Below, in pieces: positions 17 to 8,234 of a stretch of 13,794 nucleotides of DNA. This DNA comes from Candidatus Methanomethylophilaceae archaeon (GTDB lineage Archaea > Thermoplasmatota > Thermoplasmata > Methanomassiliicoccales > Methanomethylophilaceae). The notes under the pieces are model-generated. The model ran no database searches. It saw only the letters and a program-made list of their open reading frames with translations, and was not told the DNA's origin. The position numbers and the translations under genes were made by a program. The stretch is taken from the NCBI GenBank assembly GCA_023230065.1, contig JALNYB010000028.1:1-13794 (forward strand), read 5' to 3'. The number at the start of each line of letters is the position of its first letter. The stretch's first letter is position 1.

Positions 17-229
17 ATGGAAGCACATAAGCCCAACGATCACTCATCCCGTATTGATGAAGAAGAACACGGCGGAGATTCAAAGTGCGATTATTCATGC
101 TGTACAGAAAGCGGATACTGCAAACCTAGCTGTAATTTGGTATTAGCCGGACTTATTGTTGCTTGCTGTTGCTGCTGTTGCTACGTTACGCACGGATTCA
201 ATGGTGTTTGGCCGTATTGGCCAGCTTGA
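17..229 (+). CDS. Poly-cysteine small protein, candidate RiPP precursor (5' end may be cut)
   Basis: I do not recognise a named family. The reading gives 70 residues: a polar, acidic N-terminal part (residues 1-23, with EEEHGG at 15-20), then a cysteine-patterned middle with C24, C28, C29, C35 and C39, a short hydrophobic run (41-49), six consecutive cysteines (50-55), and an aromatic/proline tail ending VWPYWPA. It lies 40 bases ahead of a radical SAM/SPASM gene on the same strand. Small Cys-rich proteins beside such enzymes are commonly RiPP precursors, with the N-terminus as leader and the Cys-rich part as modified core; that role is inferred here. Alternatively residues 41-57 could be a membrane anchor and the protein an unmodified Cys-rich membrane protein. 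The frame stays open to base 2 and no Shine-Dalgarno precedes the ATG, so this could be the tail of a longer protein. Leaderless starts occur elsewhere in the window, so ATG 17 remains plausible. Confidence 0.66.
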   Translation: MEAHKPNDHSSRIDEEEHGGDSKCDYSCCTESGYCKPSCNLVLAGLIVACCCCCCYVTHGFNGVWPYWPA

Positions 230-241
230 TCTCTGAGATCA
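227..241 (+). repeat. Short inverted repeat at the peptide gene's stop codon
   Basis: TGATCTC-T-GAGATCA is a 7-bp palindrome with one central base that begins on the TGA stop codon of the Cys-rich peptide gene. It abuts the longer hairpin at 241-260. The two share base 241 and could stack. A role in ending or processing the peptide transcript is possible but not shown. Confidence 0.4.
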
Positions 242-260
242 TCACCGACATTTCGGTGAT
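241..260 (+). promoter_or_regulatory. Hairpin enclosing the Shine-Dalgarno of the radical SAM gene
   Basis: ATCACCGA (241-248) pairs perfectly with TCGGTGAT (253-260) around a CATT loop. The 3' arm contains GGTGAT (255-260), which matches the archaeal Shine-Dalgarno (complement of 16S 3' end AUCACCUCC) and sits 9 bases before the ATG at 270. The 5' arm contains ATCACC, the same sequence as the rRNA tail, so it mimics the anti-Shine-Dalgarno. When folded, the ribosome site would be masked. This could keep enzyme output below that of the peptide or allow a trigger to open it. No T-run follows, so a terminator is less likely. Confidence 0.6.
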
Positions 261-269
261 TCATTCACT

Positions 270-1412
270 ATGAAGCCGTTTATCTCAATAATAATAAAAC
301 CGACGTTGTCGTGCAATATAAGTTGCAAACATTGTTATCATACGCCAGAGGAAAGGGTCAGCGGACACATTTCTCTCAATATATTGGAAAAATTATTTCG
401 TACAGCTTCTGAAGAGTATGAATCGGTTTGGTTCATCTGGCACGGCGGAGAGCCGCTTATGCTCTCGCTTCAATTCTATCGTGATGCTATTACATTGCAG
501 AAGAAGTACTTCGGAAAAGATACTCACAGAGTAGGAAACACCATTCAGACGAACGGTATCCTTTTAGATAGAAAATTTGATAACTTTTGCAAAGAGAACA
601 AGATCAATGTAGGTGTTTCTTTCGAGGGCCCGTATAATGATGTTCTGAGGGAAAGGTCTTCAGATGTTTTGAAGAATCTTACCTATCTTTCGGATAAGGA
701 TCATGTATTCACGGTCGGATCTACAATATCATCCGGAACAGAGTCCAAACAGACTGAGTTATATGAATATTTCAGAGATATGAAGATCAATGTTTCATTC
801 TCGCCGGTCATTCCGTCAGGGTGTGCGGCAATTCACAGAGAACTCGTTCCAGATCCAGATTTGTATATCAGATCGAGCATAGAGGCATTCGATAAGTGGC
901 TGTTCGATAAGGATTCAGAGATACCGTTGATTCCTCATTATCTGTATCTTTTGAATGCTTTAGGAGAACCAACCGAATCCGATTGCGCTCACACATCATG
1001 TCTAACCAAATGGCTCTGTATATACCCTAACGGTGATCTGTATCCATGTGGAAAGAATTGTCCTAAGAATTACATGTTGGGAAACATATCTGATGTAGAG
1101 CATTTGTCAGATGTATTTTCGACAGACGGTTTCAAACAGATCATTTTAGGTACTATAATCAGAAGAGAGAAATGCAAGGATTGTGAGATATTCAGATATT
1201 GCAATGGAGGGTGCAGTGTTGATGCATTCTATGAGTGTGGTATTGAGAATATCAACGGCGATTCGTGTAGGATCTTCAAGGCGGTGTTCACTCATATCCT
1301 CGAAGTTACCAATGGCATTCTTGATGATAAGCCAGATCTCTCCGTTTACAATATGTATGTACGCGATGCGATCGTCGGAAAGTTATTGAATCCGAAGATT
1401 GTCAGTATGTGA
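270..1412 (+). CDS. Radical SAM/SPASM peptide maturase-like enzyme
   Basis: The 380-residue protein has the radical SAM cluster motif CNISCKHC (C15, C19, C22), the SAM-binding HGGEP (58-62), TIQTNG (91-96) and GVSFEG (115-120). Its C-terminal SPASM region carries many cysteines (C244, C250, C260, C264, C302, C305, C311, C315, C333), which should hold two auxiliary 4Fe-4S clusters. Overall layout and length are close to anaerobic sulfatase maturases and to the maturases that crosslink Cys-containing RiPPs. The position after YPC where sulfatase maturases carry their catalytic Asp is Gly261 here, which argues against formylglycine formation. It probably modifies the Cys-rich peptide encoded just upstream, for example by thioether or C-C crosslinks; that is inferred from context. 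No separate RRE/PqqD-like domain or exporter is seen nearby. It ends flush against the convergent ridA gene. Confidence 0.88.
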   Translation: MKPFISIIIKPTLSCNISCKHCYHTPEERVSGHISLNILEKLFRTASEEYESVWFIWHGGEPLMLSLQFYRDAITLQKKYFGKDTHRVGNTIQTNGILLDRKFDNFCKENKINVGVSFEGPYNDVLRERSSDVLKNLTYLSDKDHVFTVGSTISSGTESKQTELYEYFRDMKINVSFSPVIPSGCAAIHRELVPDPDLYIRSSIEAFDKWLFDKDSEIPLIPHYLYLLNALGEPTESDCAHTSCLTKWLCIYPNGDLYPCGKNCPKNYMLGNISDVEHLSDVFSTDGFKQIILGTIIRREKCKDCEIFRYCNGGCSVDAFYECGIENINGDSCRIFKAVFTHILEVTNGILDDKPDLSVYNMYVRDAIVGKLLNPKIVSM

Positions 1413-1793
1413 TCATTCTTTGTAAGCAACCGCTTCTATCATTATCATGACACCTTTCGGTATGGCACTTACTTCTACACAGCATCTCGTCGGGTATGGT
1501 TCTTTGAAGTAATTCATGTAGACGAAATTCACGGCTGCGAAGTTTTTCATATCTGAAAGGTAGATCTTTGTGCTGACTACATCTTGAGGTCCTGCATCTC
1601 CTCCTGCAAGTACCGCAAGAAGGTTGTCTAAGACCTGTTTTGATTGTTCTTCGATGGTCTGGCCGATATATCCTGTATTTGGATCTACAGGTATCTGGCC
1701 GGAAGTGTAGATGAAGTTTCCTACTTTGATTGCTTGCGAATAGGGGCCGGCCGCTACAGGTGCATTGGCCGATGTAATATTTTGGATTGACAT
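1413..1793 (-). CDS. ridA: RidA family reactive enamine/imine deaminase
   Basis: RidA proteins hydrolyse 2-aminoacrylate and related imines, released by PLP enzymes, to keto acids and ammonia in the cytosol. The 126-residue reading starting MSIQNITSANAP shows family hallmarks: GPYSQAI near the N-terminus, YTSGQIPVDP, and near the C-terminus PTRCCVEVSAIPKG, whose Arg is the conserved carboxylate-binding residue, then IEAVAY. The start at 1793 is chosen over an upstream ATG at 1823 because GAGGT (1804-1800) lies six bases ahead and the family begins there. This Shine-Dalgarno overlaps the metA stop codon, and the gene starts 4 bases after metA, so the two are probably translated in tandem. Sharing an operon with cysteine synthase makes sense because PLP enzymes acting on Ser/Cys derivatives leak 2-aminoacrylate. 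Confidence 0.93.
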   Translation of the reverse strand: MSIQNITSANAPVAAGPYSQAIKVGNFIYTSGQIPVDPNTGYIGQTIEEQSKQVLDNLLAVLAGGDAGPQDVVSTKIYLSDMKNFAAVNFVYMNYFKEPYPTRCCVEVSAIPKGVMIMIEAVAYKE

Positions 1794-1797
1794 TTTC

Positions 1798-2673
1798 TTA
1801 CCTCTCTTTGTTTTTAGTATCATTACCTATGTCATTCACATCATATGGTGTGCCCTGATACACGTAATAGTTGAGCCAGTTCGTAAATAATAATGTTGCG
1901 TGGCTTCTCCATGTTACAATGGGATCGTTGCTAGGATTGTTTTGTGGGAAATAGTTTTCTGGTAATCTAGGCTCCATACCGCGCTTGGTATCCCGATCGT
2001 ATTCGAATGCTAGTGTGCTGCGATCGTATTCGAAGTGACCGGTTACGAACACCTGTCCTGCCTTCTCTGATACGACTGCGCCTACTCCTGCTTCATTGGA
2101 CATTGCAACGATGTGAAGGTGGGGATTGTGCCAAATATCTGAAGCTCTGACCTCTGTATGTCTTGAGTGGGGCATATTGAACACATCATCGAATCCTCTT
2201 AGGAGAGGTTCTCCAGGTATGGTTGTGTAATGTTTGAATATCCCCGACATCTTATGTTCCAATGGATATTTCGGGATAGAATAGTGATGATAAAGACCAG
2301 CTTGTGCTCCCCAGCATATATGCAATGTGGAAAACACGTTGGTTACGGACCAATCCATTATCTCGCAGAGTTCATCCCAATAGTCCACTTTTTCATATTC
2401 GATGTTCTCTACAGGAGCACCTGTTATGATGAGACCGTCGAATTTTTGATTTTTAATCTCATCAAAGGTATGATAGAATTTATCCAGATATTCTTGAGAT
2501 GTGTTTTTTGATTCATGTGTAGCCATCTGTAGGAAGATGATATCCGTCTGCAGGGGGCTGTTACTAAGGAGGCGGAGGATCTGGATCTCCGTATCTACCT
2601 TAGTAGGCATCAGGTTTAGGATTATTATCTTTAAAGGACGGATATCCTGTGCAACCGCACGCTTCTCGGTCAT
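1798..2673 (-). CDS. metA: Homoserine O-acetyltransferase (MetA type), annotated from an internal Met
   Basis: MetA acylates the hydroxyl of L-homoserine, the activating step toward methionine/homocysteine. In the 291-residue reading the catalytic Cys is C120 in HICWGAQAG, and the His/Glu pair is H213 and E215 in VTGHFEYD. Adding 22 gives 142, 235 and 237, the numbering of intact MetA proteins, so the first 22 family residues are missing from this start. They are encoded in frame just upstream (see 2674-2746). E89 in TGAPVEN corresponds to position 111, where Glu favours acetyl-CoA and Gly succinyl-CoA in characterised members, so acetyl-homoserine is the likely product. The gene follows cysK closely and precedes ridA. 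The true start is probably the ATA at 2739 or an ATG at 2746 with a frameshift. Use of the Met at 2673 is possible but has no visible Shine-Dalgarno. Confidence 0.88.
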
Positions 2674-2746
2674 TACGAAAATATTCTCTGACTCGAGTGC
2701 CGCGCCGGCCGGAAGGTCATCTGGAATCTTTATCGGTATTTTTCAT
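2674..2746 (-). other. In-frame N-terminal coding segment of metA without a standard start codon
   Basis: Reading upstream from the internal Met (2673) in frame gives exactly 22 codons, [20 protein letters not shown] plus flanking residues, which is the canonical MetA N-terminus. The codon where family members have their initiator Met is ATA (2739-2737). An in-frame TGA follows two codons further upstream. An ATG at 2746-2744 lies one base out of frame, separated by a run of five A (T5 at 2739-2743 on the plus strand). GAGG sits about 8 bases before the ATA, an ideal spacing. Explanations are an ATG-to-ATA change, AUA initiation, a one-base insertion in the A run, or a sequencing error. Confidence 0.7.
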
Positions 2747-2761
2747 CCCTCGCTGTACGGG

Positions 2762-3667
2762 TCAGTCAAATACTCCCATACTTATGTATTTGTCCCCTCC
2801 ATCAGGAAGGATCGCTACAATTTTCTTGTCTTTTTCTTTCTTAGACAGTTCAATTGCATAATATGCAGCCGCACCGGATGAGATGCCTGCGAAGATACCT
2901 TCTTTCCTGGCAAGTTCTCTTGTAGTTTCGATAGCATTTGCGCTCGTGACTGTAACTATCTTTGAAATGAGGGATACGTCAAGATTATCAGGTATGAAGT
3001 TAGCTCCGATACCTTGGATCATATGAGGTCCTGTGCGACCTTCTGTTACCAGGGGGCTTTCTGCAGGTTCTACACCGATTACCTTTGCTTTGGAACCCGC
3101 ATCGCGGAATGCTTTGGCTATTCCTGTGATCGTTCCGCCTGTTCCGAATCCGCCCACCACATAATCGACATCAGGGATATCGGCAAGAATCTCTTTTCCT
3201 GTTGTTGTTCTATGGCTTGCCGGGTTTGCCGGGTTGTCGAACTGTCCGAGGATCATTGCATTTTTTTCTTTTGCAATTTCATTGGCTTTGTCTACAGCGC
3301 CTTTCATTCCTTCATTTCCGGGAGTGAATACTATTTCTGCGCCATATGCTTTCATGTAGGCCACGCGCTCCTTACTCATAGTGTCTGGCATTGTGAGTAT
3401 AGCTGTGTATCCGCGAACTGCTGCGATCATTGCGAGAGCGATACCGGTGTTACCGGACGTTGGTTCTACGATGATCCCGTTGTGTTTCAGAACACCTTTG
3501 GCCTCAGCATCGTTGATCATCGTCAATATGGGGCGGTCCTTGATGGATCCTCCAGGGTTGGATCTCTCTGCTTTGACGAAGACATGCGCATCTTTCGATA
3601 CGAGTTTGTTTAATTTTATGATCGGAGTATTTCCGATTAAATCAGTAATATTATTGTAAATTGTCAT
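2762..3667 (-). CDS. cysK: Cysteine synthase (O-acetylserine sulfhydrylase family)
   Basis: This PLP enzyme makes cysteine from an activated serine and sulfide in the cytosol. The 301-residue protein has the full family layout: LIGNTPIIKLN at 10-20, the PLP lysine K43 in NPGGSIKDR, the substrate-binding TSGNTG loop (70-75), HRTTTGKEI (152-160), the phosphate-binding GTGGT (175-179), and GISSGAA (261-267) with LPDGGDKY near the end. Length is normal for CysK. It is followed by metA (family start about 22 bases after the cysK stop) and ridA. The 50-base gap to cobO holds its own TATA box. The sequence does not settle whether O-acetylserine or O-phosphoserine is the donor, nor exclude a cystathionine beta-synthase-like role. 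Confidence 0.94.
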   Translation of the reverse strand: MTIYNNITDLIGNTPIIKLNKLVSKDAHVFVKAERSNPGGSIKDRPILTMINDAEAKGVLKHNGIIVEPTSGNTGIALAMIAAVRGYTAILTMPDTMSKERVAYMKAYGAEIVFTPGNEGMKGAVDKANEIAKEKNAMILGQFDNPANPASHRTTTGKEILADIPDVDYVVGGFGTGGTITGIAKAFRDAGSKAKVIGVEPAESPLVTEGRTGPHMIQGIGANFIPDNLDVSLISKIVTVTSANAIETTRELARKEGIFAGISSGAAAYYAIELSKKEKDKKIVAILPDGGDKYISMGVFD

Positions 3668-3682
3668 AATGGGTAGGAAATT

Positions 3683-3701
3683 AACAATTGTTTATATATT
3701 T
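3683..3701 (-). promoter_or_regulatory. cysK promoter: TATA box plus overlapping palindrome
   Basis: On the minus strand AAAATATATAAA lies about 28 bases before the cysK ATG (3667), the right distance for an archaeal TATA box with transcription starting at or just before the start codon. The perfect 10-bp palindrome AACAATTGTT (3683-3692) sits just downstream of and touching the TATA element, a position where a bound repressor could block initiation. No Shine-Dalgarno is seen, so the cysK mRNA may be leaderless. The operator role is inferred. Confidence 0.5.
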
Positions 3702-3717
3702 TTTCATCGAACCTTGT

Positions 3718-4260
3718 TCAGTACTCGATTCCTTTTCTGGCATGTATTCCAGCATCAAAAGGATGTTTGAGCATATTCATTTCCGTGACAAGATCAGCAT
3801 AATCTATTATCTTTTCAGGAGCCCCTCTTCCGGTAAGGACGATCTCGATATTCTTGGGGCGTCCTTTCAACATTTCTATTACATTTGTAGGATCCAAAAG
3901 TCCCCAAGACATGGCGACATTTATCTCATCTAGTATGACAAGGTCATATTTGTTGGAATATATCTCTTCCTTTGCTTTGGCTAGAGTATCCTTTGCGATC
4001 TGAATATCTTCCTCCTTGGGTATTTTGTGGACCATATGATCCAATCCCATTGGCATTATCGTAAAATTGTCGAAATGTTCGGCTGAAACATGTTCTCCGT
4101 AGTTCTCGGCAGGTTTTAGAAATTGTATCATCAAAACATTGAGGCCTCTGCCCGCGGCTCTGAAAGCAAGTCCTAATGCGGCAGTTGTCTTTCCTTTTCC
4201 TTTTCCTGTGTAGACTTGGACCAGACCAAGTTCATCCTTGATATCAGTAGAGAGGGCCAT
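3718..4260 (-). CDS. cobO: Cob(I)yrinic acid a,c-diamide / corrinoid adenosyltransferase (CobO/BtuR)
   Basis: CobO transfers the adenosyl group of ATP to the reduced cobalt of corrinoids, giving the adenosylcobalamin form. The 180-residue protein begins with a short extension, then VQVYTGKGKGKTTAALG (14-30) holding the unusual P-loop (18-26). FRAAGRG (33-39) and IQFLKP (45-50) follow, with a Walker B-like VILDEIN (108-114), LTGRGAP (142-148) and the family-typical end HPFDAGIHARKGIEY. Length and motifs match the BtuR/CobA/CobO family (not PduO or EutT). It lies first in the leftward block ahead of cysK, but 50 bases and a separate promoter lie between, so co-transcription is uncertain. In methylotrophic methanogens corrinoids are needed for methyl transfer; that link is contextual only. 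Confidence 0.95.
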   Translation of the reverse strand: MALSTDIKDELGLVQVYTGKGKGKTTAALGLAFRAAGRGLNVLMIQFLKPAENYGEHVSAEHFDNFTIMPMGLDHMVHKIPKEEDIQIAKDTLAKAKEEIYSNKYDLVILDEINVAMSWGLLDPTNVIEMLKGRPKNIEIVLTGRGAPEKIIDYADLVTEMNMLKHPFDAGIHARKGIEY

Positions 4261-4366
4261 TTAATCAAATTGTGTATTAATTTATAAGGATTAAAAGGAA
4301 TCTATCTGATCGAGAATTTTTATTGTATTACCAAGTTTAATATCTCAGTTTAAGTTATTCAAAGAC
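4261..4366. promoter_or_regulatory. Divergent promoter region between cobO and the MFS exporter gene
   Basis: For leftward cobO, TTATAAAT (plus coordinates 4280-4287) lies about 24 bases before the ATG at 4260. For the rightward MFS gene, GTTTAATAT (4335-4343) lies about 28 bases before the ATG at 4367. Neither start has a Shine-Dalgarno sequence, so both transcripts may be leaderless. No clear operator palindrome is visible. Confidence 0.45.
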
Positions 4367-7898: not shown

Positions 7899-8234
7899 TT
7901 ATTCATTATGAATGAAGTCTAAGTTGTTATTTTCTACCTTTTTTACTAATGACTTCGAAAGCATTCCTAATTCCATCCATGCCGCATCGAATACTGCGTT
8001 TGGTGTAAGGCACGGTGCAGATACGCTTGATCTTATATTCGGGTCTTGAATTTTACTCTTCGAGAAGTCTACAGCATCTTCAGCTGTTATTTTTGTAAGT
8101 TTTTCAGCATATTCTTGAATATGTGGACAGTCTGAGACGATTTTGACATCAAGGTCGCCATCTTCACGCAGAGTCACTGTGACTTTGCTGGTCTTTGAAC
8201 ACGTATTCATTTTTGATATTACTGTGGAAGGCAT
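7899..8234 (-). CDS. Small conserved archaeal protein with paired cysteines (DUF6951-like)
   Basis: The 111-residue protein reads VISKMNTCSKTSKVTVTL, then DLDVKIVSDCPHIQEYAEKL, then VSAPCLTPNAVFDAAWMELGM. From memory this pattern (an early Cys, a beta-rich stretch ending SDCP, and a late C-x-(T/V)-P followed by an A-rich helix) matches small uncharacterised proteins common in methanogens, DUF6951; I cannot verify the match here. The cysteines C12, C35 and C74 could bind a metal or cluster. No signal peptide or membrane helix is seen. The ATG at 8234 is preceded by GTTAATAAAAG (8264-8274) on the opposite reading, a TATA candidate about 35 bases away. Function unknown. Confidence 0.7.
   Translation of the reverse strand: MPSTVISKMNTCSKTSKVTVTLREDGDLDVKIVSDCPHIQEYAEKLTKITAEDAVDFSKSKIQDPNIRSSVSAPCLTPNAVFDAAWMELGMLSKSLVKKVENNNLDFIHNE

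Follow-up and report, generated by a model that had tools for sequence, protein, structure and literature searches.

The 13,794-nucleotide stretch of contig JALNYB010000028.1 from a Candidatus Methanomethylophilaceae archaeon, called the window here, begins with a gene for a small cysteine-rich protein, followed on the same strand by a gene for a radical SAM/SPASM enzyme. An initial annotation had treated the two genes as a candidate system for a ribosomally synthesised and post-translationally modified peptide (RiPP). Is the peptide the substrate of the enzyme, and do the two genes form a unit on their own? Comparison with related genomes showed that a fixed unit of three genes, encoding the peptide, the radical SAM enzyme and a DUF5685 protein with a predicted prenyl-synthase fold, is present in many methanogens of one order, the Methanomassiliicoccales. 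No published description of this three-gene system was found in the open-access literature.

The gene pair in the window

The features of the pair are as follows.

2 to 229, + strand: Cys-rich small protein; truncated at its 5′ end by the contig edge (about 98 residues in complete relatives), ATG at 17 an internal Met
86 to 133, + strand: C-x3-CC-x5-C-x3-C block; its three CxxxCC cysteines present in every one of 62 peptides
137 to 181, + strand: hydrophobic, helix-like segment with a ladder of Cys, six in a row in the window; Kyte-Doolittle maximum of 1.6 or more in all 62 peptides
182 to 226, + strand: C-terminal motif YVTHGFNGVWPYWPA; first Y, G and W-P invariant in 62 of 62
270 to 1412, + strand: radical SAM/SPASM enzyme; fold like that of anSME, presumably a maturase of the peptide type
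312 to 335, + strand: CNISCKHC, the radical SAM motif CX3CX2C; present in 61 of 62 loci and cut off at a contig edge in the other
984 to 1268, + strand: SPASM cysteines C239, C244, C260, C302, C305, C311, C315 and C333, with the spacing of two auxiliary clusters

The Cys-rich frame from 17 to 229 encodes ...CDYSCCTESGYCKPSC...ACCCCCCYVT..., and the reported C-x3-CC-x5-C-x3-C block followed by six cysteines was read in it. The SPASM enzyme reported 40 bases downstream on the same strand was also found, as an open reading frame (ORF) of 380 residues that exceeds the cut-offs of PF04055 (43.3 bits against 29.5), PF13186 (25.4 against 21.5) and TIGR04085 (39 against 27). The proposed start at 17 did not survive. 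The frame ends with the stop codon at 227 to 229 and is open leftward to the window edge, and the nearest relatives of the peptide have 96 (P0002) and 98 (P0003) residues, the size class to which the L001 peptide also belongs; the window peptide therefore lacks about 26 to 28 N-terminal residues. As no sequence containing it is longer than the window itself, its start is missing, and on this reading of the sequence the size of 70 residues is an artefact of the contig end.

Distribution of the peptide and the enzyme

GTDB representatives were scanned with a 22-sequence alignment of the enzyme, giving 62 loci. These are labelled as Methanomassiliicoccales or its families, as Thermoplasmata(les), or as unranked and 'Euryarchaeota' archaea, and a number come from the guts of ruminants, horses or termites. 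Of 147 order genomes, 78 matched the peptide, 80 the enzyme, 82 DUF5685 and 77 all three. The arrangement that characterises RiPP systems, a dedicated precursor-type gene beside the modifying enzyme, was seen in 61 of the 62 loci, where a Cys-rich ORF lies immediately 5′ of the enzyme gene (L060 starts within the enzyme), and in 77 of the 78 peptide genomes. Homologues without the enzyme, which had been named beforehand as evidence that would count against the pairing, occurred in none of the 78.

The ratio of non-synonymous to synonymous substitution rates (dN/dS) of the peptide, computed on the 824 of 1891 pairs within the dS range used, had a median of 0.38 (5-95% range 0.12-0.84), with 66% of pairs below 0.5. 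Since the ORF precedes the enzyme gene in nearly every locus and its dN/dS is that of coding sequence, it is not a chance reading frame. When homologues were sought with the window peptide alone, three proteins were found, and with the profile 33, itself included in both cases. One match per genome was obtained in 76 of the 78 genomes; G045 and G098, with two each, contain one copy that is broken and another spread over separate contigs. The enzyme was found without the peptide in G029, where it is a true sulfatase maturase, and in G089, as a fragment at a contig start. A class-wide search for the peptide gave 51 of 350 genomes, 50 of which were the order genomes already found; the remaining match, in G213 (2e-5, three stops), was judged spurious and rejected.

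In G045 (L078, about 2800-4345) the peptide and the enzyme both look frameshifted, by decay or assembly error, and in G040 the region with the enzyme, DUF5685 and an ABC-type ATPase is present twice (L074 and L075) with divergent sequence, perhaps from two strains.

DUF5685, the third gene

ORFs of at least 90 residues around the enzyme were clustered (63 loci including the window, to which the neighbour counts below also refer). In 55 loci a DUF5685 protein (PF18937; 152.7 bits for the L001 copy, cut-off 26.7) is encoded immediately 5′ of the peptide gene, in the reverse orientation, and tblastn added cut copies in L013 and L014, giving 57 of 62 loci. At L023 and L060 the sequence ends too near the pair for a decision, and no DUF5685 was found at L005, L012 and L039. 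The window has none, presumably because its contig begins within the peptide. What had been described as a two-gene pair must thus be extended by DUF5685.

In 73 of 77 genomes DUF5685 is divergent on a shared contig, the matches lying 82-533 nt apart in 70 and further apart in three; in the other four it is on a separate contig (three) or 19 kb away (G105). The overlap of peptide and DUF5685 has a hypergeometric value of 2e-34 with kinship ignored. Only G070 has the peptide-enzyme pair without DUF5685. The reverse, DUF5685 without the peptide, was seen in G025, G037, G057, G089 and G100; the last four are matches at or near contig starts, and the G025 contig, bacterial by eye and with DnaJ- and DnaK-like ORFs, is probably contamination. 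DUF5685 was present in one of 14 control genomes (Thermotoga maritima) and in 35 of 389 genomes sampled from the phylum, all of them order genomes already counted.

The predicted model of DUF5685 has the overall fold of a trans-prenyl synthase. This predicted fold and the presence of two Asp-rich stretches recall the trans-prenyl diphosphate synthases and the MoeN5 prenyltransferase; D102/D106 and D197/D201/D205 are invariant and would be candidates for the motifs of the diphosphate site. Unlike these enzymes DUF5685 has additional invariant cysteines (C25, C28 and C73), and prenyl transfer by it is putative. A search of PDB sequences with DUF5685 gave a best E of 0.045.

The peptide family

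The 61 upstream ORFs and the window peptide were aligned. Invariant across the 62 are the CxxxCC cysteines, the C and Y of a C-x-Y, one G and the final W-P, while the total number of cysteines ranges from 8 to 14. A 19-residue stretch with a Kyte-Doolittle value of at least 1.6, found in every peptide, would correspond to one membrane helix. The C-termini are YWPF (48), YWPN (4), FWPF (4), YWPY (3), YWPA (1), YWPL (1) and WWPF (1), and in seven divergent members (L050, L051, L053, L054, L056, L059 and L061) G[TS]CC[DS]YC replaces GFNGVWT ahead of YWPF. Two more distant peptides outside the alignment end in CTYCQWPF (L073) and GCAGSYWPF (L074). The row of six cysteines, first taken as the hallmark of the peptide, is peculiar to the window: the longest run is three in 46 of the 62 and two in 15.

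At the N-terminus there is an LxxxYxxQ motif, whose Y and Q are conserved without exception (60 of 60 peptides). The acidic stretch ending at HGGDSK had been proposed as the leader; as a whole leader it does not hold, the stretch being a linker that is preceded by the conserved motif, which is lost from the window. The suggestion that the peptide is unlike the named precursor families was borne out, as no Pfam or NCBIfam family matched it (the L001 and L054 peptides were also without a Pfam match) and the enzyme fell far below the peptide-maturase cut-offs, as described below. In L043, just after 5989, the stop after WPF is absent (CGA) and the frame continues into the enzyme gene, which may be an error or real.

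The radical SAM/SPASM enzyme

The SPASM Cys pattern is present in 60 of the 62 loci, the exceptions being L059 (frameshifted) and L060 (cut). In the NCBIfam comparison, among the 25 of 66 matches listed, the enzyme missed every peptide-maturase cut-off. The best match listed was DynA (NF041298; 166.7 bits, cut-off 450) and the third the TIGR04083 family of methanogen peptide-modifying radical SAM proteins (121.1, cut-off 300); the darobactin maturase model NF038005 (82.9 against 650) and the SCIFF maturase model TIGR03974 (69.5 against 425) were also below. PADLOC gave only viperin models (best E 7e-9), via the radical SAM core.

The closest solved relative by sequence and fold is anSMEcpe (PDB 4k36-4k39). 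This enzyme has YPCD where the window enzyme has YPCGK, and the Asp that is replaced is the catalytic D277. The window enzyme also differs in having its own peptide partner, with no sulfatase match in the peptide genomes. Similarity to the radical SAM protein ChlB with its precursor ChlA (PDB 9gm3, 9gmc) is weak (E 8.3e-12 by profile). The sactipeptide-type thioether enzyme CteB (PDB 5wgg/5why) has about 450 residues and an N-terminal extension, so that the match begins at its residue 91, whereas the 380-residue window enzyme has no such extension.

In a tree of 63 enzymes the window groups with L001 and L010 (96/89), and the peptides ending in WPN go with a single enzyme clade (100/100). The CCxYCYWPF group is not one clade (two changes against a shuffled mean of 4.3; 14 of 500 shuffles as low). 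The tree is compatible with joint inheritance of enzyme and peptide type but is not a strict test of it. In G062 (L076, 1504-4079) two radical SAM-type genes lie, by eye, side by side on the same strand, and the product of one is distantly related to the window enzyme (E 1.5e-75).

DUF5685 in bacteria

Four bacterial loci with DUF5685 were viewed. In three of clostridial type DUF5685 is followed by a gene for a J-domain protein whose C-terminal tail is rich in Cys.

L084, 5010 to 6517, Pusillibacter plasmid: DUF5685 and J-domain neighbour, ending ...CLPLCCLYSLCPGGYCFFC
L085, 2965 to 4570, Subdoligranulum plasmid: DUF5685 and J-domain neighbour, ending ...CSCCDMCTAMMCMDMCCGCGRGGC
L081, 1501 to 3031, bacterial-type contig: DUF5685 and J-domain neighbour, ending ...MACIFCCHEGC

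Pfam detected the DnaJ domain in the L084 and L085 proteins, and none of the 12 genes examined around L084 except that for the J-protein (seven Cys) encodes more than one Cys in the final 30 residues. In a Nocardia plasmid (L086, 4001-5008) the DUF5685 protein has a Cys-rich C-terminal tail of its own (DACDGGCDPVPDDCCDGSECCD). In a scan of viral contigs with bacterial DUF5685, 21 stretches matched a pattern and none was confirmed. The most surprising point is that, judged from these few bacterial sequences, DUF5685 appears tied to Cys-rich tails in two domains of life.

Proposed role of the three-gene unit

From the observed gene order, co-occurrence and motifs, the folds of the predicted models and the lack of a sulfatase match, we propose, with a probability of about 0.6, that the peptide is a dedicated substrate of the SPASM enzyme and is kept as a cross-linked membrane protein, with DUF5685 acting on its tail. 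A precursor-maturase relation is the best reading because of the tight pairing, the conserved N-terminal motif and the enzyme fold. The enzyme would recognise the L-x3-Y-x2-Q motif and, with two auxiliary Fe-S clusters, make at least one radical-based change (thioether or C-C links) in the Cys- and aromatic-rich C-terminal half, where candidate reactive residues are the three cysteines of CxxxCC, that of C-x-Y and those of the aromatic terminus. The product would not be secreted but would stay embedded in the membrane, small and cross-linked, in a constitutive role. The divergently encoded DUF5685 protein, with its prenyl-synthase fold, may act on or together with the Cys-rich tail. A retained cell component is favoured because the C-terminal half is conserved, the gene is single-copy and widely present in the order, and no protease or dedicated exporter was seen fixed nearby.

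Several points weigh against this proposal. The modification of the peptide is a prediction, and the conserved cysteines could simply bind metal. The enzyme has no N-terminal extension able to hold a RiPP recognition element, since solved relatives align from residue 1-4, and leader recognition is thus a matter of inference. The peptide is absent from roughly half of the order genomes (69 of 147), in part perhaps because sequence is missing. In G034 the enzyme (L073, 3097-4200; outside the 62 loci) lacks CX3CX2C and is altered in the GGEP region while keeping the SPASM cysteines, with the peptide and DUF5685 alongside; radical chemistry is therefore dispensable there or the system is decaying. 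Finally, the peptide may be exported, given that 35 of 63 loci have an MFS efflux-type gene in the same orientation no more than 6 kb away (13 copies lie within 1.5 kb).

The alternative that survives best, though we consider it unlikely, is a lipidation system in which DUF5685 prenylates cysteines of membrane tails, the archaeal peptide and the clostridial J-protein being its targets, and the radical SAM enzyme adds a second modification. The eukaryotic cysteine-string proteins (DNAJC5) carry a string of cysteines on a membrane-seeking tail. The archaeal peptide resembles them in its Cys string on a membrane-type tail, and lipidation of it is putative; the clostridial DUF5685 partners share their J domain, which the archaeal peptide does not have. 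A broader version, doubtful in our view, is a prokaryotic cysteine-string system in which DUF5685 isoprenylates clustered cysteines, on J-domain co-chaperones in Clostridia and on a radical-SAM-cross-linked peptide in Methanomassiliicoccales, giving a lipidated, cross-linked membrane component, with possibly a redox or scaffold function, in methanogens that apparently lack methanophenazine.

It is also improbable, to much the same degree as this broader version, that the peptide is an unmodified membrane peptide binding a metal or cluster (e.g. Fe-S, Zn or Cu), with the enzyme as its partner or electron donor. The invariant CxxxCC among 8-14 cysteines close to a membrane-like segment and the persistence of the peptide in G034 would fit, but conservation of the aromatic W-P and of the N-terminal Y and Q equals that of the cysteines, whose number and positions vary in the hydrophobic segment, and short conserved ORFs next to SPASM enzymes are mostly substrates.

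A secreted RiPP antibiotic or signal would agree with the precursor/maturase gene order, the gut origin of some sources and the MFS gene, but is disfavoured and very unlikely. The C-terminal half is conserved order-wide and the gene is almost always single. The MFS and CDF genes lie at a median of 2-3 kb, within a longer block with RidA, MetA, CysK and CobA, and we take the MFS gene to be part of this syntenic block; among the 40 largest neighbour clusters DUF5685 alone is fixed beside the pair.

That the enzyme is an anaerobic sulfatase maturase (compare the label Arylsulfatase regulator on P0107 in one source) was rejected as scarcely credible: although anSME is its nearest solved relative, it scores 158.7 bits for TIGR03942 against a cut-off of 349.45 (462.8 for L077, a true maturase of the order), the Asp after YPC is A, G or S in 60 of 60 readable enzymes, and sulfatase matches (E 1e-10) occur in 10 of 147 order genomes but in none of the 78 with the peptide.

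Expression signals and neighbouring genes

One further feature lies between the two genes of the window.

241 to 260, + strand: intergenic stem-loop ATCACCGA-CATT-TCGGTGAT; perfect 8-bp stem, 3′ arm containing GGTGA

From its sequence this GGTGA is likely to be the Shine-Dalgarno site of the enzyme, and a stem-loop over it would allow the peptide to be made in excess of the enzyme. RNAfold gave two hairpins for 227-272 of the window (-14.2 kcal/mol). Upstream of the peptide, 54 of 61 loci have a GGTG-type ribosome site, and in the 32 nt before these sites the best stem exceeded shuffles (p ≤ 0.05) in 13 of the 54. The same test was positive in one of 50 regions before DUF5685, one of 108 random pieces and 15 of 61 regions before the enzyme; the upstream stem is thus not specific to the peptide. 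A consensus fold of 33 peptide leader regions, whose alignment was poor, contained no predicted pairs, and the idea of a stem-loop is therefore founded on single-sequence statistics.

Genes for RidA, a MetA-like homoserine acyltransferase and CysK adjoin the pair in the window (1413-3667), with clusters in 28, 35 and 28 of the 63 loci respectively; their position, as genes of sulfur amino acid metabolism beside a Cys-rich peptide, is possibly synteny only. In L051, L053, L054, L056, L059 and L061 a conserved Cys-containing protein of about 105 residues is encoded just 3′ of the enzyme and by eye resembles window 7899-8234 (- strand).

Significance

According to one paper, the ISO4-H5 genome suggests that methanophenazine is absent (PMC5011839), and another states that HdrE is lacking in the order and that M. 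luminyensis does not produce cytochromes for conserving energy (PMC7374477). If the proposal is true, an order-specific, strongly conserved and modified membrane peptide would add a new component to methanogens with an unusual membrane energy metabolism, although a tie between the peptide and energy metabolism is speculation. It would also possibly involve novel radical SAM chemistry on clustered cysteines. The three genes are all small and the proposal is directly testable. For DUF5685, a Pfam family of unknown function in Bacteria and Archaea, the link to Cys-rich tails seen here would be a first lead.
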